The position numbers and the translations under genes are program-made. Under the pieces are notes generated by a model, which saw only the letters and a program-made list of their open reading frames with translations, searched no databases and was not told the origin of the DNA. A stretch of 64,000 nucleotides of DNA from Tetrapyrgos nigripes (taxonomy: Eukaryota; Basidiomycota; Agaricomycetes; Agaricales; Campanellaceae), in contig JAACJM010000308.1 of assembly GCA_013368315.1 (NCBI GenBank), positions 1 through 64,000 of the forward strand, written 5' to 3'. Of the stretch, positions 3,001 to 56,740 are shown one piece after another. Numbering within the stretch: position 1 is the first letter of the stretch; each line of letters opens with the position of its first letter.

Positions 3001-3520
3001 AAAACCTCAACCAACTCAGGGACGAACTCAAAGCAAGCCTGACATCGGCCGCCGAAACAATGAAAGCACAGCATGGAAATCATTCCATGTCAGGGTACAA
3101 GGTCGGAGATAAGGTACTACTCGACGGAAAAAATCTGAAGACAACAAGACCGAAAGCTAAGTTGTCTGATCGTCGTCATGGCCCATTCGAGATCATTGAG
3201 GTAATCAGCCAGGTTAACTACAAATTGAAATTACCGACAACCTGGCGTATACACCCTGTCTTCCACGCTTCCCTATTGACGCTCACAGACCAAACTACCC
3301 TGAACCTCCCGCGGAGCTGCTAGACGCAGACGAAGAATACAATGTTGAAATGATATTAGACTCAAAACCAACCAGAAACAGAAAAGGGACTCAGTACCTC
3401 ATCAAATGGTTGGATTACCCCGACTCGGAGAATACTTGGGTACCTACGTCAAACCTGACCAAGGTAAAAGACATGATCGAAGAATTCCATCAAAAACACC
3501 CCCGAGCTTACCGACACTAA
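1..3520 (+). pseudogene. pol: Broken pol polyprotein of copy A (protease end, RT, RNase H, integrase, chromodomain)
   Basis: Pol copies the element RNA and integrates the DNA. Visible parts are the protease C-terminal half (1-260), RT with the YMDD catalytic motif (codons 1206-1217), the RNase H region with its SRRQAQWALFLTRF end (to about 1950), an integrase zinc-binding segment with GCAKCQATK (about 2400), the integrase core and C-terminal domain (2490-3290), and a chromodomain (3332-3520). The frame is lost repeatedly: TGA at 206-208 and 2331-2333 where copy B has CGA, a frame change near 660-680, indels around 1000-1110, and more near 2590, 2715 and 3285. RT shows the expected [18 protein letters not shown]. 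This is a clear pseudogene of an originally single reading frame ending with TAA at 3518-3520. Confidence 0.93.
3332..3520 (+). other. Complete chromodomain at the pol C-terminus of copy A
   Basis: The translation starts EEYNVEMILDSK and continues through YLIKWLDYPDSENTW to IEEFHQKHPRAYRH and a TAA stop. The Y-x-V-E-x-I-L-D start, the Y-L-I-K-W centre and the E-N-T-W-x-P segment are the chromodomain signature of chromoviruses, where this domain is thought to steer integration into heterochromatin. It lies downstream of a frame break in integrase, so it is not joined to an intact pol. Copy B lacks 25 codons of the same domain. Confidence 0.88.
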
Positions 3521-3678
3521 CGGCGTCTACTGTCACCACCTAATTGACGGCGACTTTGTCGCCTCCCACCACCACAAACAAGGACTCGTTAAAAGGCAGA
3601 TATACCGAAACTAAACGACAGAACAAGCTCAATCACATCCTACCACACACCTCTCCACCCTCTCACTATACCTCCATC

Positions 3679-4215
3679 ATGACTACACCCATCGCTATCA
3701 CAGTCTCGACTACCACCACAACAACAATCAACCCGTTGACAGACAACACCGGACGCTGCAGATATGGTCAACGTTCAGGCCGGCGTTGCAGATTAGACGA
3801 AGGGCACACAGGGAGGCACAGCGAATATAATCAATGCATCTGGCCAGGACATGAGTCGTCAAAACGATGCAAGTTGGGAGCAGGACACCGAGCGAGATGC
3901 GCTACCTACCGGTCTAGCCTCCGAGCCAATGAACAAAACAACCTGGGATGGGGAGATGCAAGCGTATGGGGAGGAAACACTCAGTTAAACTATGTCGACG
4001 ACAACATCGGATGGGGTAACAACAACGACGGATGGGGAACATGGGAAGGGATAGGATGGGGGGGACGTGAGTCAGACCTAACAGGATGGGGCACCTTCCC
4101 CAACGACTCACCGGAAACTTGGCCGACTATACGTGGTTTGGACAAAAGGATCAAGAAGCAGTGGATGAAGCAGTGGACCAATTGGCTTCCGAGCTCCGGT
4201 GAAAGCTCGACCTAG
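3679..4215 (+). CDS. Extra 3' ORF of copy A: paired Cys/His motifs plus Trp-Gly-rich tail
   Basis: This 178-codon ORF lies between the pol stop and the polypurine tract, in the place where env sits in other elements. The frame is open from 3544, but the only ATG position shared with copy B is 3679, so I chose it. Residues 26-74 hold two Cys/His units, C27-C37-H43-H47 and C53-C64-H70-C74, each with a G-x-R-C-[RK]-L type core, which could bind zinc. Residues 90-169 contain 11 tryptophans, mostly as GWG or WG (W91, 97, 112, 119, 122, 127, 137, then 148, 162, 166, 169), and the end is basic (KRIKKQW). I do not recognise the family. WG/GW-rich tails bind Argonaute in known proteins; that role here is inference. 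It is not a typical env: no signal peptide or membrane segment is visible. Confidence 0.75.
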   Translation: MTTPIAITVSTTTTTTINPLTDNTGRCRYGQRSGRRCRLDEGHTGRHSEYNQCIWPGHESSKRCKLGAGHRARCATYRSSLRANEQNNLGWGDASVWGGNTQLNYVDDNIGWGNNNDGWGTWEGIGWGGRESDLTGWGTFPNDSPETWPTIRGLDKRIKKQWMKQWTNWLPSSGESST

Positions 4216-4226
4216 AGGGGGGGTAG
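4213..4226 (+). promoter_or_regulatory. Polypurine tract before the 3' LTR of copy A
   Basis: A purine run containing seven G (AGAGGGGGGGTAG) directly precedes the LTR start TGTCATGAAT. It primes plus-strand DNA synthesis in LTR elements. The stop codon TAG of the WG-rich ORF overlaps its edge, so that ORF fills all the space up to the tract. Confidence 0.8.
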
Positions 4227-4704
4227 TGTCATGAATCGCCTCCCGTCTCTTTGATTTCCTCTTCATTTCCTTCTACTACCTATTCACTTCTATTCACTGT
4301 TCTATCACCTTCCATAAACCCCATAAACACTAATTACTTCTCATCATCGTCCATTCCCGATCTATGACTCACTTCTCCGCTTCCTTTATCTCCATGGACA
4401 TTCTCACACATATACTTCTTTACTTGACTCACATTCTTATCTCCTCCGATCCCTAGGCTCCATGGACATTCTCACATATTCATTCCTCTCTTATATATAT
4501 CTTAGATCTCGTAGCTAGATTCCTTAGTCTGTTCACTTCATCTCCACTCCGCTCTTAGTACAGTGCAGTGTCGAGCATAGTCAGCTACTCGATCCCTTCT
4601 CGTCTCTATCACTCTTTCTCTATCTCACCTCATTGTAACTCGCCGAATCTATCTTGTTCATTGTGTGACTTGGGTGGTTTTGCTAAGTGACAACGTTCCT
4701 GACA
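4227..4704 (+). repeat. 3' LTR of copy A (478 bp)
   Basis: The LTR begins TGTCATGAAT and ends CGTTCCTGACA. It aligns throughout with the 460-bp LTRs of copy B at an estimated 85% identity, with several small indels. A TATATATA run near 4493-4500 lies in the position of a promoter TATA box, followed by a conserved block through GCTAAGTGACAAC. The 5-bp TSD cannot be tested because the other end is outside the window. Confidence 0.92.
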
Positions 4705-8782: not shown

Positions 8783-9060
8783 CACTGGGTGCAAACACTT
8801 GTAATTCCTTGGATATACCAAGGAATTACATAAGACTTACACTGGTACACTCAATATGTAAGTCCACTTGACTTACTGAAGTATTATCAGGACCACTGTG
8901 AGACTTCATGCCTTACAATGGTCATATATAATTGTTTCATTTTTTTTGGTCTCTGGTAATACTTCAGTAAGTCAAGTGGACTTACATATTGAGTGTACCA
9001 GTGTAAGTCTTATGTAATTCCTCTGTATATCCAAGGAATTACAAGTGTTTGCATCCAGTG
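8783..9060. repeat. Long foldback element: 108-bp arms, 62-bp loop
   Basis: The left arm (8783-8890) and right arm (8953-9060) are inverted copies over 108 bp with only a few mismatches, for example CACTGGGTGCAAACACTTG against the complement of CAAGTGTTTGCATCCAGTG. Weaker similarity continues a little outward to about 8769. Within each arm is a smaller palindrome around CCTTGGATATACCAAGG. It fits a MITE or foldback element. Transcription would give a long hairpin RNA. Confidence 0.88.
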
Positions 9061-9469: not shown

Positions 9470-9929
9470 TGTCAAGAATGTTGTCACTTAGCAAAACCAC
9501 CCAAGTCACACAATGAACAGATAGATTTGGCGAGTTACAATGAGGTGAGATAGAGAAAGGATGATAGAGACGAAAAGGGATCGAGTAGCTGACTATGCTC
9601 GACACTGCACTGTACTAGGAGCGGAGTGGAGACGAAGTGAACAGACTGAGGAACCTAGCTACGAGATCTACGATATATATATAAGAGAGAAATGAATATG
9701 TGAGAATGTCCATGGAGTTTTAGGGATCGGAGGAGATAAGAGTATGAGTCAAGTAGAGAAGTATATATGTGGGAATATCCATGGAGATAAAGGAAATGGA
9801 GAGGTGAGTCATAGATCGGGATAGACGATGATGAGAAATGATTTGACGTTTATGGGGTTAGAGTGGAAAGTAGATAGTATAGGGAAAGGGATAGAAGGGA
9901 AATGAATAGGTGGGGAGCGATTCATGACA
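9470..9929 (-). repeat. 3' LTR of copy B (460 bp)
   Basis: In element sense it begins TGTCATGAATCG and ends ATTCTTGACA. It is the downstream LTR because the purine tract and WG-rich ORF abut it at 9930-9943. It differs from the 5' LTR at two transition sites, near 9580 and 9670. Confidence 0.96.
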
Positions 9930-9943
9930 TTACCCCCTCTTTA
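9930..9943 (-). promoter_or_regulatory. Polypurine tract of copy B
   Basis: In element sense this reads TAAAGAGGGGGTAA immediately before TGTCATGAAT. The first three bases are also the stop codon of the WG-rich ORF. It primes plus-strand synthesis. Confidence 0.8.
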
Positions 9944-10456
9944 GGACGAGCTTCCACTGGAGCTCAGCAAGCTAGTCCTCCAATGCTCCGCCCATTGTTT
10001 GCGGAGTCGCTTGTCCACATCTCCTTGGTTCGGCGAATATTTGTCCCAGTCAATGGTGTAGTTTGCAAACTCCCATCTAGGATCGTTCCAATCTAAGTTT
10101 CCCCACTCTGTCGTGTTGGTTGCTGTTCCCCAACCCCCTCCATTGTTGCTCGTGTCCCACTGTACAGTGTTGTTTGCCCCCCATATACTGCTGTCCCCCC
10201 ATCCAAGGTTCCCTTTGTGTTCTGCGCGTAGGGACGTCCATTGAACCACACATCGAGCTCGATGTCCTCTACCCAATCTGCATCGTCCTGGTCCGTCCTC
10301 TCCTCCCCATGTGCAGTGTTGGCATCCATTGTGAGGTCCAGCCTGCTGTTTTGAAAGTCGGCATTGACGTCCTGAACGCTTTCCGTAGGTGCAGCGCCCT
10401 CTGTTAGTTGGGTGTGCGGTATGAGCAGTAGTGTTGGTGGAGGAAGTGGTAGACAT
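9941..10456 (-). CDS. Extra 3' ORF of copy B: paired Cys/His motifs plus Trp-Gly-rich tail
   Basis: This 171-codon homologue of the copy A ORF is uninterrupted. The frame is open to an ATG at 10594, but 10456 is the ATG shared with copy A. Cys/His units are C22-C32-H42 (one His of copy A's unit is Gln here) and C48-C59-H65-C69. The tail has W86, 92, 100, 109, 118, 123, 128, 137, 155 and 159, mostly as GWG, IWG, EWG or DW. Protein identity to copy A is only about half, although the adjoining integrase is about 95% identical, yet cysteines, tryptophans and the DKR-[LI]-[RK]-KQW end persist. Its place between pol and the purine tract suggests expression from a spliced or reinitiated message. Function unknown; an Argonaute-binding role is inference. 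Confidence 0.78.
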   Translation of the reverse strand: MSTTSSTNTTAHTAHPTNRGRCTYGKRSGRQCRLSKQQAGPHNGCQHCTWGGEDGPGRCRLGRGHRARCVVQWTSLRAEHKGNLGWGDSSIWGANNTVQWDTSNNGGGWGTATNTTEWGNLDWNDPRWEFANYTIDWDKYSPNQGDVDKRLRKQWAEHWRTSLLSSSGSSS

Positions 10457-10620: not shown

Positions 10621-13600
10621 TTAGTGTCGGTAAGCTCGGGGATGTTTCTGATGGAATTCTTCGATCATGTCTTTTACCTTGGTCAGGTTTGACGTAGGTA
10701 CCCAAGTATTCTCTGAGTCAACGTCGTATTCTTTGTCTGCGTCTAGTAACTCCGCGGGAGGTTCGGGATAGTTCGGTCTGTGAGCGTCTGTTTCGACGTA
10801 TGGCGTTAATAGGGAAGCGTGGAAGACAGGGTGTATACGCCAGGTTGTTGGTAATTTCAATTTGTAGTTAACCTGGCTGATTACCTCAATGATCTCGAAT
10901 GGGCCGTGACGACGATCGGACAACTTAGCTTTCGGTCTTGTTGTCTTCAGGTTTTTTCCGTCGAGTAGTACCTTATCTCCAACCTTGTACCCTGTCCAGG
11001 ACATGGAATGGTTTCCATGCTGTGTTTTCATTGTTTTGGCGGCCGATGTCAGGCTTGCTTTGAGTTCGTCCCTGAGTCTGTTGAGATTTTTGAGTCGTTC
11101 CTCTACTGTTGGTAGGTTAGAGGTTGAGTTGAATGATGGGAAGAAACGTGGTTGGTATCCGTGTAGGAGCTCGAATGGAGATTTTCCTGTTGCCGAATGG
11201 ATTCTGGTGTTATGACTGAATTCGGCGTAAGGTAGATAATCCACCCAGTCTTCTTGTCGATAGTTACAGAAGATGCGTAGGAACTGCTCCAATTCTTGAT
11301 TGTATCACTCCGACTCTCCGTCGGTCTGTGGGTGGTAAGCAGTACTGAGGGCTGAAGTTATGCCTAGTTTCTCGTGGATTGCGGCCATGACCTTGTTAGC
11401 GAACTGCGGTCCCCGGTCGGATATCATTTTGTCCCACAGTCCGTACCGCCGCCAGGTGTTGTCAAGTAACAGATTAACAGTACCGTCACTGTCAATTGTT
11501 TTTGTACACGGTGATATGATGACCGTTTTCGTTGACTTGTCAACTGTGACGTGGATCGCATTGAATCCTTTACATTCGGGAAGATCCATGATGAAGTCGG
11601 TAGTGATAGTCCTGAAAGGGTGTTCTGGAATTTCAGTGGGAATTAAGGGGATTCGAGCGGGATGGTTGTTAGTCTTCGTTGCCTGGCATTTGGCGCAACC
11701 AGCTACGTAGTCTCTGACGAAGACTGACATTCCTGGCCACCAAAATTCTCTGCTGACTAATTCGTAAGTCTTGTATCGTCCGGGGTGTGGTGTAGTTTTA
11801 CGATATCCTGTCGAAGATCGTTGTCTGCTGGTACATAAATTTTGCCTCGGAACAGGATGATTCCATCTTCGTAGTTCCATTCCTGTAGATTCTTTGCCAG
11901 CGCACGTGGTTCGTTTCGTAGGATGACATCTAGGGCACTTACTACCTCGAGGTCCTTCTTGGGGCATTCCTTGATTCTTCGTCGTAGTTCTACGTCCCCT
12001 ATAGCAGTTACTGTTCCTTGTCTAGTTGCTCGGATTCGGAAAAATTTGGGGTCGAGGAGGATTCTGTCGGTGTTATCGTTCTCGGTCCCGATTTTTTGAT
12101 CTGGTCGTCTAGACAACGGGTCAGCTTTGTTGAGACTTCCTGGTTTATGTTGGAGGGAGAACTCAAATCGTGTGCTTGTCGTCGACTGAGTTTTTGGGCA
12201 GTTTGGAAATACTCCAAGTTCCTGTGGTCGGTGAAGATTTCGATAGAATGGGGGGCTCCCTCCAAATAGTGTCTCCATGCTTCCAGTGCTCGTATGATTG
12301 CCAGGAGTTCTTTGTCATGGATGTCGTAGTTTCGTTCGGTCTCTGAGAGTGATTTGGAGATGTAGGCGACTGGGTGCCATCGATTGTCTTCTCCAGTTTG
12401 CATAAGTATTCCCCCCGTTGCGTAGTCCGATGCGTCTACTTCCACTCGGTATGGCTTCATGTGATCTGGCATCAGTAGAACAGGTTTGGATGTGAAGGCC
12501 GTTTTGAGGGATCGGAATGCTTTTTCGGCCTCTGTTCCCCAGTTCCAGTGGTTGTCCTTCCTCGTCAGATCGAAGAGGGGCCGTGCGATTTTCGAAAAGT
12601 CTTTGATGAAACGTCTGTAGAAGTTTCCGAATCCTAAGAAGGCCTGAACTTCCTTTACTGTTTTGGGGGCTGGCCATTCAAGTACTCCCTCTACCTTGGC
12701 TGGGTCCATCGACAAAGTGTCGTGAGAGACAATCAGTCCCAAGAAGTCAACCTTGTCTGCTTTGAATACACATTTCTCGGGTTTGGCGTATAGGTCATTG
12801 TCCCGTAGTCATTGTAGGACTGTTCGGACTAATTCTCGATGCTCTTCTAGGTCATGGGTGAATACTAAAATGTCATCCATATAGATGACGATCTTCCCTT
12901 GGTCGATGAGATCCTTGAAAATAGTGTTCATCATCGCTTGGAAGGTCGCTAGCGAGTTCATTAATCCAAAAAACATGACAGTCGGTTCAAATAGTCCTCG
13001 GTTGGTTTTGAAGGCGGCTTTCCATTCGTCCCCCTCTTTGATATGGATGTTATTGTATCCCCACCGTAGGTCGATTTTACTGAACACGTATGTGTTCTTG
13101 AGTTTGTCGATTAGTTCTGGAATGAGGGGTAGTGGGTATGCGTTTTTCACGGTACCCTTATTGAGCGCTCTGTAATCCTGTACTGGGCGTAGCTTTCCGT
13201 CCTTTTTCTTAACAAAGAAAAAGGGACTTGCCATTGGAGATTTTGATGGTTTAATATATCCCTTTTTGAGATTTTCGTTCAGGAAGGAGTCGAGTTCAGA
13301 TTGTTCATTTGGGGAAAGAGGGTATGTTTTACATGCGCGTGGTTGGAAGCCGTCTTGTAGCTCGATTGCATGGTCCCAATCGCTTTGTTGGGGTAAGCAT
13401 TCTGAAGTCTTTTTGTCGAACACCGATAAGTATTCGTGATACTGTTCGGGTATTTGTTCTTGTAATGTGGTCGGTGAGTTCGTGGATTCGTCTTCAGTGT
13501 TTTGTCGTGCTTTGGTAAAGGCAGTTCGGATACTCAGCTTGGTTCCTGACAGACCTTCGTCAGGGTCGTTTGGGGTATCTAGATATTCCATAACAAGTTC

Positions 13601-14390
13601 ACTCCATTGTCCTGGGACATTCCATTGTCCAGTCGTATCTTCTGAGCCAAGTATTGCTCCTAAGTCCATTCGTTGCAGTCGGATCTTCCTAGGTTGTTGT
13701 GATCGACGTTGTCCGGCCACCTTGGGTTGTGGTGTCGTTTTGTGAGGTCCTACGATGTCTTTGAATATTACTTGGTAATTTCGGTGATGTGTTCTGGGGT
13801 CGACTATTTCAGGTTTTTTTGTTTTCGGGGGGGGAGATTTTCGACTTAGCTTTGGTTAATACTGGGGCTTTTCCCAGTGCACAAGCGTTGGGGCATCGTG
13901 TTAGGTTGATCTCTGATGTCGCCCAGTCGATCTCCGGATTATGATGTCATAACCAATCGGTACCGATATCCGTAATATAAAACTCGGCAGTTTCTTCGTG
14001 GTGAGATTGGTGGTCTTGGGTGTAGATTCGTAGTTTTTGAATGGTGTAGTGCCTTACCCATCCCATCACGTTTTCTGATCCGTCGACGTTTCGAACTGGA
14101 AATGGTTTTTCTAGGGGGATGCGATTGAGATGATGTTTTTGGGCAAAGGCGTCTGCTCCACTGTCTAGCAGAGCGGTTGCGTCGATTTTTCATCCAGTTA
14201 TTTTCCCGATCAATTCAGTTTTAAGCTCTATTGAGGGGGTCTGTTGGTTTCGAGTGATTGCCGTGATTCTTAATTCAGATGGGGATTGTGGCTTACGAAA
14301 GGGTATAAGGCTCGTGTATTGCCTGCGTTTTACTGGTATATATGTCCATGTTCCTCCTCCCGACGACGTGGCAGGGAAGGTATTCAAAAA
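10621..14390 (-). pseudogene. pol: Broken pol polyprotein of copy B
   Basis: Protease has the DSGAD active site (about 14157-14171). RT has [13 protein letters not shown] and IYMDD (about 12870). RNase H keeps VEVDASDYATGG. Integrase has GCAKCQATK and a core with TTDFIMDLPE (about 11590) and DRGPQFANK, ending TAYHPQTDGE. The C-terminal part (10621-11292) ends IEEFHQKHPRAYRH. Lesions are TGA at 14190-14192, 13947-13949, 12809-12811 and 11305-11307 (the last three are CGA in copy A), 19-bp deletions near 12171 and 11787, and a 75-bp in-frame deletion in the chromodomain near 10718. Between lesions the sequence is excellent and near-identical to copy A. Confidence 0.94.
10623..10740 (-). other. 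Chromodomain of copy B with 25 codons deleted
   Basis: The text runs KEYDVDSENTWVPTSNL, jumping from the first strand to the last third. Compared with copy A, positions 3349-3423 (75 bp) are missing, with a GA microhomology at the junction. The central Y-L-I-K-W strand, which supplies part of the methyl-lysine cage in this fold, is gone, so histone reading is probably lost. The frame is kept. Confidence 0.85.
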
Positions 14391-16508: not shown

Positions 16509-16968
16509 TGTCAAGAATGTTGTCACTTAGCAAAACCACCCAAGTCACACAATGAACAGATAGATTTGGCGAGTTACAATGAGGTGAGATAGAGAAAGGA
16601 TGATAGAGACGAAAAGGGGTCGAGTAGCTGACTATGCTCGACACTGCACTGTACTAGGAGCGGAGTGGAGACGAAGTGAACAGACTGAGGAACCTAGCTA
16701 CGAGATCTACAATATATATATAAGAGAGAAATGAATATGTGAGAATGTCCATGGAGTTTTAGGGATCGGAGGAGATAAGAGTATGAGTCAAGTAGAGAAG
16801 TATATATGTGGGAATATCCATGGAGATAAAGGAAATGGAGAGGTGAGTCATAGATCGGGATAGACGATGATGAGAAATGATTTGACGTTTATGGGGTTAG
16901 AGTGGAAAGTAGATAGTATAGGGAAAGGGATAGAAGGGAAATGAATAGGTGGGGAGCGATTCATGACA
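16509..16968 (-). repeat. 5' LTR of copy B (460 bp)
   Basis: It starts and ends exactly like the partner at 9470-9929, with two differences. It is the promoter LTR. A TATATATATA run near 16710-16720 lies in the TATA position in element sense. CCGTG follows at 16969-16973. Confidence 0.96.
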
Positions 16969-53219: not shown

Positions 53220-56200
53220 TTAAGATGAAATTGGAAGAGGACCGGGCTTGTTCAGATTTTTCTGATGATACTCATCTATAGCTTCTTCGGCTGTCAGCTC
53301 ATCTGCGGGAAGCCAGGAAAATTCTTCATCGGTGCCTTCATAACCAGACCATTGTACCAAATAAAGTAGAGGACATTTCCGACGGCGCCGATCAATTTTC
53401 GAGTCTAAGATTTCAGTGATTTCGTATTCAAGTTCACCTTCAATTTTGACTGGAGCAGGTGGATCTGGGATACGATTTGGAATCGTATTCGGGACAGCGG
53501 GTTCTAGTTGGGACACATGGAAAACAGGGTGGATCCCATGGAGATAGTCAGGGAGCTTTATGGCATAAGAAAGAGAGCTCGGACGAGAGATAACTTTGAA
53601 TGGACCAAGGAATTTCTCGGAGAACTTCAGAGTGGGTCTTGTAGTTTTTATGTGTTTGGCAGACACAAAAACCTCGGAACTGATAGGGATTTCTGGTCGG
53701 CCTGTACCTTGTAATGTTTCTGAGCTTCTGGAATCTCATCCCGAAGGAAACCATGCAGTTCCTCGAGATTGACAACGAAATGTCGGGCGCGTTCGGAAGC
53801 GAGATTGTAGTCGGGATGAACTGTTAAGTTTGGGTGAAACCCTTTATTCATGAAGAAGGGTGTGATTCCGGTGGAAGCGTTCGGAGCGTTATTGTAAGCG
53901 AACTCAGCGATGGGAAGTAAGGAAGACCAATTATCCTGTTGGTAAGAACAATAGATCCGGATGTACTGCTCGAGTGTCTGATTCGTGCACTCGGTTTGTC
54001 CGTCGGCTTCCGGGTGATAACCCGAAGTGAAATGAAGTTCCATATTCAAAGCTTTTCCTAAGGATTGGAAAAAATGGGAAACGAATTCGGAACCGCGGTT
54101 GGAAGTGACATGGTTAGGAACACCATGCTTAGAAAAAACATGAATAACGAATAGTTCCGAGAGCTGTTCCGATGTAATGGTATTGTGAGTCGGAATGAAG
54201 ATTCCTTGTTTGGATGCACGGTCCACAATTACTAGGATTGCTGTGTATCCGTTGGAATCTGGTAGTTGTTCGATAAAATCCATGGAAATCGAGTCCCATG
54301 GACGGACTGGCACGGGAAGTGGTTTTAGGAGACCATAAGGACGATGTCGACGAGGCTTGTTACGACCACAAACCGTACAGGAAGCGACATAATCCCGAAC
54401 GAATTCTCGGACCTTTGGCCAGGTATAGTGGCGTCGGATAAGGTCAAGTGTCCTGCTAGGGAATGGTCGTGGTATTGTCGCAAAACTTGAAGTCTAAGGT
54501 CGGAAGCACCAGGAACGAATATCCTATCGTCCAAGCGTAATAACCTGGATTCATCGAGTTTCCATCAGGATGATGGGGAATCCTTAGCTAATTTGAGACC
54601 GGTTTGTGATTCCGGATTGGAAGCGTAGGATTCTCGGATTGTTGATAATGGATGCATGGAGTATGGCTCGGAGTGATTCAGAAAGTTGTTCTTGGGTGAA
54701 GACTGGGCGGAAATTCTGCGGATTAACCTTGGCGTAGTTGCTATCCCCCATTGTCTAGTGAGTGAGTCGGGTTTTGCACCTAATTTACCTGGTCGGAACC
54801 AGATAATAAGATTGAAGGCGGAAAGATACTCGGACCATCGGACTTGTCGTCGTGTTAGAATTTTGGTGGTTGAAAAATATTCCAAATTCTTGTGGTCGGT
54901 AATGACATCGATAGGGGATCTGGAGCCTTCCAAATAGTGTCGCCAGATTCGGAAAGCTTCCTTGTCGTGAACATCGTAATTGAGTTCAGCGGATTGTAAG
55001 GTGTGTGAATAGAATGCGATGGGATGAATCTCTCCGGAATCGTACTGGAGAGAGAGGATTGCGGCGATAGCGTAGTCGGAAGCGTCGGTTTCGACTATGA
55101 TCTTTTGGTTCGGAACCCAATGACCAAGGATCAGAGCAGAAGTAAAAGCGTGCTTAAGGTAATCGAAAGATTCCTGACATGCCTGCGTCCATTTCCACTG
55201 GGTAGTCTTTCGGGTGAGACGGGTTAAGGGTACAACGATATCCGAATAATTGAAGATGAAACGTCTGTAAAAATTACAGAAGCCAAGGAAAGATTGTATA
55301 TCCTGGACCTTCCGAGGAACAGGCCATTCTAGGATAGTTCGGATTTTGGAAGCATCCATTGTTAACCCTTCAGGGGAGAGAATGTAACCTAGATACTCCA
55401 CGGTATCAATGGAAAAGAAGCATTTTTCGGGATTGACGAAGAGTCCGTGCTCTCGGAGCCGACGGAATACTTCGCAAACATGCTTCTGATGATCCTCCTC
55501 ATTGTCGGAATAGATCAGGACATCGTCAAGATAAACGATGACAGTGACGTCGAGGAGATCCTTGAGGATGTCGTTGATAAATCGCTGAAAAGCGGTGGGA
55601 GTGTTGCTAAGACCAAAAGGCATCACTTTCCATTCGAAGGATCCATAATGGGTCCGAAAAGCGGTTTTCCATTCATCCCCCTCGGCGATGTGGACCAAGT
55701 GGTAAGCGTGACGGAGATCCAACTTGGTATAGATTTTCGCACGCCAGGGAGTGTCTAAAAGCTCGGAAATAAGTGGAAGCAGATACCTATCCTTCTATGG
55801 AAGTCAACGCAAAGCCAAAGCTCTCCGTTTTTCTTCTTCACAAAAAGGACCGGAGCCGTGAAGAGTGAGGATGAAGGTTTAATAAAACCTATAGTCAGAT
55901 GTTTGTCGATAAATTTTCGTAATTCTCCTAATTCCCTGTCGGATACCGGATAAATCCGGGCAATCGGCAGAGCCGCACCTTCAACAAGGTCAATCTTGAG
56001 GTTGTAGGGGCGATGCGGAGCCAGTTTATCCGAAAGTCTTTCGTCAAACACATCGGAATAGTCAGCTAAATATTCGGGAGCCTTTGGATAAGATGGGGTT
56101 TCTGAATTTGAGGCTTTCGCATGAACCTCAGCATCCGAAGTTAACCGGAGTGCCATTGGTTCAAGCTGATCCTGTTTGCAACAGCGAAGGAAAGCTGCTG

Positions 56201-56740
56201 CTCCAATGATGCTAATGCGGGTGTCGTCAACGGAAGATGCCATTTGTGATACGGAAGGATAGAAATAGATGGGTTTGTACGGCCATGATGTTTTAGAACG
56301 AATGGGTGGCATTACAGCTGGAAGTGGTTTGGAAACTGGAGAATCCGGGTCAGCCTCTGAGGGCGACACACAGGGTCCAGAGCTCAGAGTGACAGCAACC
56401 AGTTCGGGGTCATGGAAATCAATGTTTCCTTTTACCCAGTCAACCGACAGGTTGTAGTGGGAAAGGAAACTATATCCGAGGACTCCCTTACAAGTTGAGT
56501 CGAGATTAGTGACGTAGACGTCAAGAGGAATTTGTCCCCCCTTCGGAAAGTAAACAGAAAGTCGGCATACTTTATTCAGGGTGCAGGGTACGGAACCGTC
56601 AAGTAAGCGTAGACGAACGGGAGGAATGGAAAGGGTAGGTAGGGAATGTTCGGAAACGTAAGTAGAATCGATAAAACAATCTGAGGAACCAGAATCCAAA
56701 AGCGACGGAAACGAAATGGAAAGTTCGGGTTTAGTATATG
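53220..56740 (-). pseudogene. pol: Pol polyprotein of element C (protease, RT, RNase H, integrase, chromodomain), broken
   Basis: Protease: MDSGSSDCFIDS (about 56690). RT: APVLFVKKKNGELWLCVDF (55810), a short deletion and frameshift where RLNEITIKN-type text is expected (about 55790), then KLDLRHAYHLVHIAEGDEWK and VYLDDVLIYSDN (55520), the catalytic motif. RNase H: VETDASDYAIAAILS. Integrase: SCTVCGRNKPRRH (54360, zinc region in a shifted frame), MDFIEQLPDSNGYTAILVIV, GVPNHVTSNRGSEFVSHFF and GYHPEADGQTE. Chromodomain: EYEITEILDSKIDRRRRK, YLVQWSGYEGTDEEFSWLP. Frame breaks lie near 55790, 54460 and 53665. It cannot be translated as one protein. Confidence 0.93.

Follow-up and report, generated by a model that had tools for sequence, protein, structure and literature searches.

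A third gene under selection, with a tryptophan-rich acidic tail, downstream of pol in a chromovirus lineage of a mushroom

The tas gene of foamy viruses lies at the 3' end of the viral genome. Its product, Tas (Bel-1), is made from its own internal promoter and combines an N-terminal DNA-binding part with an acidic activation domain at the C-terminus that depends on one essential Trp (PMC7390438, sections consulted), and the consulted part of PMC4929722 agrees on the pairing of an LTR promoter with an internal one. Conserved Trp residues are also found in Argonaute hooks, and our comparisons with hooks draw on excerpts of three papers. Hooks are described as disordered variable repeats with conserved Trp, of which two or three suffice (PMC10991848), the surroundings of the motifs are rich in A, S, E, N and D (PMC2904775), and HIV-1 Nef binds Ago2 only when both GW motifs are present (PMC3762824). 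Among LTR retrotransposons themselves, an additional ORF of unknown function was drawn in 2010 for fungal or spikemoss gypsy elements (PMC2864245, legend of Fig. 3). The ORF3s of bdelloid rotifer elements encode env, GDSL esterase, DEDDy exonuclease or transmembrane proteins (PMC5408684, excerpt), and a fungal survey reports inserted domains in complex, composite elements, with no such ORF mentioned in the parts consulted (PMC3248453).

In this paper we describe a third gene, ORF3, which lies between pol and the 3' LTR in a chromovirus lineage of the fungus Tetrapyrgos nigripes and is under selection. The window analysed is a stretch of 64,000 nt (contig JAACJM010000308.1, positions 1 to 64,000) and holds two copies of the element, A and B (Table 1). 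The element is a Ty3/gypsy chromovirus, as Pfam matches to RVT_1, RT_RNaseH, rve and Integrase_H2C2 show, and it has the LTRs and the polypurine tract expected of this class. At the C-terminal end of integrase, where chromoviruses have a chromodomain, copy B matches the Pfam Chromo model with an E value of 9e-4, short of the curated cut-off, its domain being incomplete; for the chromodomain stretch of copy A the genome contains at least 150 relatives. A first-pass annotation of the window had proposed a 178-aa ORF between pol and the polypurine tract, and both the open frame and its place are borne out by the chromodomain upstream and the LTR downstream. The gap from the chromodomain match to the ORF3 start is 161 nt, and only 11 nt separate the stop codon from the LTR. 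When all stop-free windows in the six frames of the 64 kb are considered, a density of at least 7 Trp per 80 residues is confined to ORF3 of copies A and B.

Table 1. Positions of ORF3, its parts and the surrounding element features in the window.
Feature	Position	Strand	Basis
ORF3 of copy A, 178 aa (P0001)	3679..4215	+	open frame, many intact relatives, subfamily A dN/dS 0.17
Two presumed zinc units, residues 27-74	3757..3900	+	ligand invariance, exact spacing
Acidic Trp-rich segment, residues 91-148	3949..4122	+	Trp counts, charge, Trp conservation
Basic C-terminal segment with near-invariant W162 and W166	4129..4212	+	alignment, charge
TATA-like box TTAAAAG, putative internal promoter, 90 nt 5' of the ORF3 ATG	3589..3595	+	
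Chromodomain at the end of pol, copy A	3305..3517	+	similarity search
Polypurine tract, copy A	4214..4226	+	read directly from the sequence
3' LTR, copy A (TGTCA...TGACA)	4227..4704	+	read from the sequence
B-type ORF3 of copy B (Met 47 onward of P0003)	9941..10456	-	
B-type stretch of copy B: ORF3, polypurine tract and the initial 85 nt or so of U3	9845..10444	-	limits at 75-nt resolution
3' LTR of copy B	9470..9929	-	
5' LTR of copy B (identity with the 3' LTR of this copy, 99.6%)	16509..16968	-	
RT, integrase and partial chromodomain segments of copy B pol, several frames broken	10621..13720	-	

The window contains two further structures. A near-perfect inverted repeat at 8783-9060, with 108-nt arms that are 96% complementary and 62 nt apart, suggests either a long hairpin or a small foldback element. 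At 53648-56699 on the minus strand, RT- and integrase-like frames of another gypsy-type element, unlike copies A and B, can be recognised by eye, and no frame with at least 7 Trp in 80 residues was seen near it.

The protein of copy A has two Cys/His units, as had been noted, which read C-x9-C-x5-H-x3-H and C-x10-C-x5-H-x3-C. These presumably bind zinc. They resemble the CCHC zinc knuckle of Gag in being small Cys/His units in a retroelement protein, but the spacing is quite different, since the gag-type C-x2-C-x4-H-x4-C is not matched by the two ORF3 units (C-x9/10-C-x5-H-x3-H/C). The 11 Trp reported for the tail are found exactly, within residues 91-170. Their description as mostly GWG or WG is a slight overstatement, with Gly following directly after 6 of the 11. 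The zinc part of copy A carries a net charge of +9 and the Trp tail one of -8. This polarity is general: each of the 58 Zn-type tails measured carries a net charge between -4 and -10, and the zinc part is never below +6 in the Zn-type groups. The tail is probably disordered. AlphaFold gave no usable model (pLDDT 31.7 with 32 related rows, and 38.1), although low confidence does not prove disorder.

To describe the ORF3 types found in the 98.5 Mb genome we distinguish the Zn-types A, B, C and E (E being locus L090) from a D-type without zinc units. Searches gave at least 150 matches with the copy A query and at least 151 with the copy B query, and ORF3 matches number at least about 280 in all, some of which are pieces of one copy. 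Among the matches listed there are about 75 A-type rows, 151 copy-B matches, about 19 E-type rows and 44 D-type places, the last from a search whose 53 candidates were all scored. In the 80 loci that were fetched (L001-L080), which are the best-scoring copies plus chosen divergent ones and not a random sample, a chromodomain lies upstream on the same strand in every case, which places ORF3 3' of pol, and LTR-like DNA follows in 78. A frame of 170 aa is missing in 19 of these loci, which were left out of further comparison. Seen from the side of pol, a Trp-rich ORF lies at most 900 nt downstream of the chromodomain in 140 (125 + 15) of the 150 listed copies, of 854 candidates, and ten are without one. 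The figure is a lower bound because only part of the ORF3 rows was entered (75 A-type, 21 Zn-type and 44 D-type places, then 20 rows of the E-type search). The association holds across the divergence of the element, with a Trp-rich ORF in 69 of 70 copies whose chromodomain is at least 90% identical to that of copy A, in 53 of 60 at 79-89% and in 18 of the 20 that reach no more than 78%.

Of eight loci from the 79-89% pol class that were examined one by one, six carry a D-type ORF. These ORFs were read over 130-157 aa, contain 11-16 Trp and no zinc units, and have a net charge of -9 to -20; three of the pieces (L086, L087 and L088) appear interrupted or shifted. The other two loci are L090, with a zinc-type ORF that in its best match is 54% identical to a C-type one, and L085, with only a reverse-oriented C-type piece. 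The tails of the Zn-type and D-type proteins give a weak profile match (hhalign probability 46.7, E 2e-4). The feature common to both is the Trp-rich acidic tail and not the zinc module. In four D-type loci (L083, L084, L088 and L089) the frame meets no stop ahead of the polypurine tract and continues into the LTR, whose pyrimidine-rich DNA it reads as a hydrophobic stretch.

Selection on ORF3 is evident from the pooled pairwise dN/dS, which is 0.17 in A, 0.15 in B and 0.24 in C, with column-bootstrap 95% ranges of 0.12-0.22, 0.11-0.20 and 0.18-0.32; these values come from 55 sequences of at least 155 aa (five of 60 were shorter and were left out), and the pairs are not independent. The two shifted sense frames give 0.87-2.07. 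Of the antisense frames, the one that shares the wobble position gives 0.21-0.33 and the other two 0.86-1.77. Since dN/dS is low compared with the shifted frames, ORF3 is a real gene, under weaker constraint than the chromodomain (0.04-0.09). Purifying selection over many copies also means that it cannot be a chance frame, and together with the position 3' of pol it supports the first-pass view of a genuine protein of a fungal gypsy element. For the D-type, dN/dS is 0.31 compared with 0.92 and 1.05 in the other frames, with all six pieces included, the three interrupted or shifted ones among them.

The eight Cys/His ligands are invariant in all 37 aligned proteins, E-type L090 included, and the exact spacing of both units is kept in 60 of 61 long frames; the invariance of the first unit is partly by choice, because the start Met was picked through the motif of that unit, and L031, the only one of the 61 without it, was excluded. 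When copies are compared over residues 88-170, Trp differs in 1.7% of comparisons for A, 4.4% for B and 12.3% for C, and the other residues of this region in 23%, 24% and 44%. A TGG codon easily mutates to a stop, and choosing open frames drops such copies, so we corrected for codon structure and transition bias. After correction the Trp change rate is 0.11 (A), 0.23 (B) and 0.35 (C) of the average of the other residues, that is, Trp changes about 3-9 times more slowly; the corresponding values for Gly are 0.29, 0.53 and 0.62. The effect of discarding stop-containing frames is thus too small to produce the Trp conservation as an artefact. Seven Trp columns of the tail and C-terminus (91, 97, 127, 137, 148, 162 and 166) are common to A, B and C, with Trp in at least 91% of each group. 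The remaining ones appear and disappear with insertions, so that the spacing is not conserved. As a separate observation, the ratio of transition to transversion rates at fourfold sites is 11.6 in A-type copies (L001-L030), compared with 3.9 in B and 4.5 in C, a hint of C-to-T mutation acting on the A-type.

ORF3 has a probable TATA-type promoter of its own, to judge from a T[AT][AT]AAA box 60-110 nt upstream of the ATG in 58 of 60 copies (all 20 A, all 24 B and 14 of 16 C). The same pattern has 23 matches in 71,725 nt of neighbouring element sequence. The leader between box and start is A- and C-rich, and in 50 of the 58 copies it contains no ATG. In the six D-type loci a TAAAA-containing box was seen by eye nearer to the start, in some with an intervening ATG. 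A TATA-like box alone is no proof of a promoter; such a promoter would suggest a short ORF3 mRNA distinct from that of gag-pol. Between the region of the internal promoter and the LTR, no shared 8-10-mers are clearly above expectation. Taken together, A and B share fewer such words than expected and C only slightly more; one shared 8-mer, ACTGTCAA, is found again in 18 of the 24 B copies and in 11 of the 16 C copies.

Copy B (L031) shows that ORF3 can be exchanged between subfamilies. The interval that had been given for its homologous ORF is right; the protein, with 12 Trp, is read from the minus strand, and the plus frame from the same place has four stops. As far as the end of pol, copy B resembles A-type elements at 86-98%. 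Then comes a mixed zone of roughly 150 nt, followed by a stretch which, from about 10444 to 9845, is 74-93% identical to the B-type compared with 51-76% to the A-type, and the rest of the LTR is A-type again. Copy B therefore reads as a recombinant, an A-type element that carries a B-type ORF3, and since its two LTRs are 99.6% identical it probably moved recently. In its first zinc unit Gln replaces His at one ligand position. The shorter copy L034 has the same pattern over its alignable part, and the two may descend from one exchange event. The transfer of the start of U3 together with ORF3 may merely reflect the position of the crossover. The near-identity of the LTRs of copy B (16968-9470, minus strand) stands beside broken pol frames, and both mobilisation in trans and sequencing errors come to mind.

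Our searches for relatives found no homologue outside Tetrapyrgos nigripes, no known family and no structure in the protein, Pfam, NCBIfam, PDB and IMG/VR collections. The protein database returned a single match, the predicted Tetrapyrgos nigripes protein P0002, which was also the only hit of a 32-member profile, even with the limit at E 10. The C-type query gave no protein candidate, IMG/VR gave 7 pattern matches of which none was confirmed, and Pfam, NCBIfam and PDB gave nothing significant for ORF3. As the protein database lacks the hundreds of copies in the host's own genome, absence elsewhere says little. P0002 joins the Trp-rich half of ORF3 to a piece of a Tc1-like transposase, which would be either an annotation artefact or a nested insertion. 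In the literature, titles and abstract beginnings of open papers yielded no description of a zinc- and Trp-rich ORF in a fungal retrotransposon. The first-pass annotation had named no fungal gypsy element with such an ORF. An extra ORF had already been drawn in 2010, and the consulted text of PMC2864245 mentions no zinc- or Trp-rich protein. That ORF and ORF3 are alike as extra ORFs of gypsy-type LTR retrotransposons; for the former the consulted text gives no element name, sequence or position. With the bdelloid rotifer elements, as excerpted from PMC5408684, the present element shares the presence of varied extra ORFs after pol, but the kinds of protein differ.

What might such a protein do? 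The reading that we put first, tentatively and by analogy, is a trans-acting regulator of the element that resembles Tas without descending from it. The zinc module would attach to the DNA of the element or to nascent RNA. The tail, acidic and aromatic, would use its Trp residues as contact points and recruit the host transcription machinery, so that the LTR would fire against host silencing. Like Tas, ORF3 has a putative internal promoter of its own, an N-terminal module that looks suited to nucleic-acid binding, a C-terminal acidic tail with important Trp and a 3'-end position; the net charge and the Trp mean that the tail may be an activation-type domain. Unlike ORF3, Tas belongs to a vertebrate retrovirus, the element has no env, and no sequence similarity was found. 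Searches of proteins, Pfam and PDB gave no match to Tas, so ORF3 is not classed as a member of the Tas family, and the lack of similarity to any transactivator, Pfam or PDB entry speaks against a regulator. In its favour, the ORF3 of L031 and L034 travels with the B-type start of U3. The lack of a motif common to promoter and LTR gives no sign of a common binding site and is mildly against a regulator, as is the altered first zinc unit in the recently moved copy B, and the D-type sister ORF3 does without zinc units altogether. The zinc module, acidic aromatic tail, probable promoter and 3' position would suit a transactivator and an Argonaute hook equally well. For a hook, the tail would dock its Trp in the Trp pockets of a host Argonaute and block or divert silencing of the element, with the zinc module holding element RNA. 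We consider this rather unlikely, though several features agree with it. There are 7-13 Trp per protein in 60 copies, the tail Trp stand in a G/N/D/T/S/E context, and they stay conserved where spacing and indels change. In the host genome, 21 Piwi-domain matches fall on 10 contigs, and for the one Piwi exon compared the closest PDB entry is QDE-2. Copy A has six non-overlapping GW/WG motifs, where at least three are asked of hook proteins, and its Trp flanks, rich in small, polar and acidic residues, match the description in the excerpt of PMC2904775. This places ORF3 near the WG/GW proteins GW182, NRPE1 and Tas3 and the viral P1, p38 and Nef, which likewise have several Trp in such surroundings. 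It is unlike them in its zinc module in front and its clearly acidic tail, a character which suits activation domains equally, and it has fewer motifs than the long plant hooks. GW/WG pairs are few, at 5-7 per protein in the 60 copies, and D-type tails carry WW and aromatic runs. Such runs are less typical of Argonaute hooks. Conserved Trp-Gly spacing among homologues, whose lack the first-pass annotation had named as evidence against a hook, is not found between subfamilies, although hooks are described as variable repeats.

A chaperone or assembly factor, whose zinc module binds element RNA and whose W/G/N/D sticker tail gathers Gag and RNA into retrosomes or particles, is also unlikely in our judgement. 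The basic two-unit zinc module, with its net charge of +9 in copy A, the low-complexity tail rich in Gly, Asn and Trp and the strict linkage of ORF3 to the element would all agree with this role, but the Gag of copy B, translated by eye, already has a canonical CCHC knuckle, a promoter and mRNA of its own would be odd for a structural protein, and the D-type ORFs have no zinc module. An Env-like or membrane protein seems highly improbable even though ORF3 occupies the usual place of env and several D-type frames read a hydrophobic stretch as they continue into the LTR. That stretch comes from pyrimidine-rich LTR DNA, and copy A has no transmembrane or other hydrophobic segment (highest 19-residue Kyte-Doolittle mean 0.5), which disfavours the reading for the Zn-type ORF3. 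We give almost no credence to a relic frame without function. Copies are often broken, as the 19 of 80 mostly best-scoring loci without a 170-aa frame demonstrate, but dN/dS of 0.15-0.24, invariant ligands and slowly changing Trp contradict it.

In the literature searched, little seems to have been written about accessory genes in LTR retrotransposons of fungi. ORF3 is a selected, Trp-conserving and exchangeable accessory protein with a candidate internal promoter, in a genome with hundreds of copies. It may bear on how high-copy elements persist in Argonaute-bearing mushrooms. We think it possible, if still doubtful, that a non-infectious fungal LTR lineage has evolved a programme like that of complex retroviruses, with an early gene under its own promoter, a cassette exchanged between subfamilies and a zinc-plus-Trp-tail protein that acts in trans against silencing, either by docking to Argonaute or by forcing LTR transcription. 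Should its target prove to be silencing or the LTR, ORF3 would play in fungi the part of viral suppressors or of Tas, and the host-element arms race in basidiomycetes would become testable with one small ORF.
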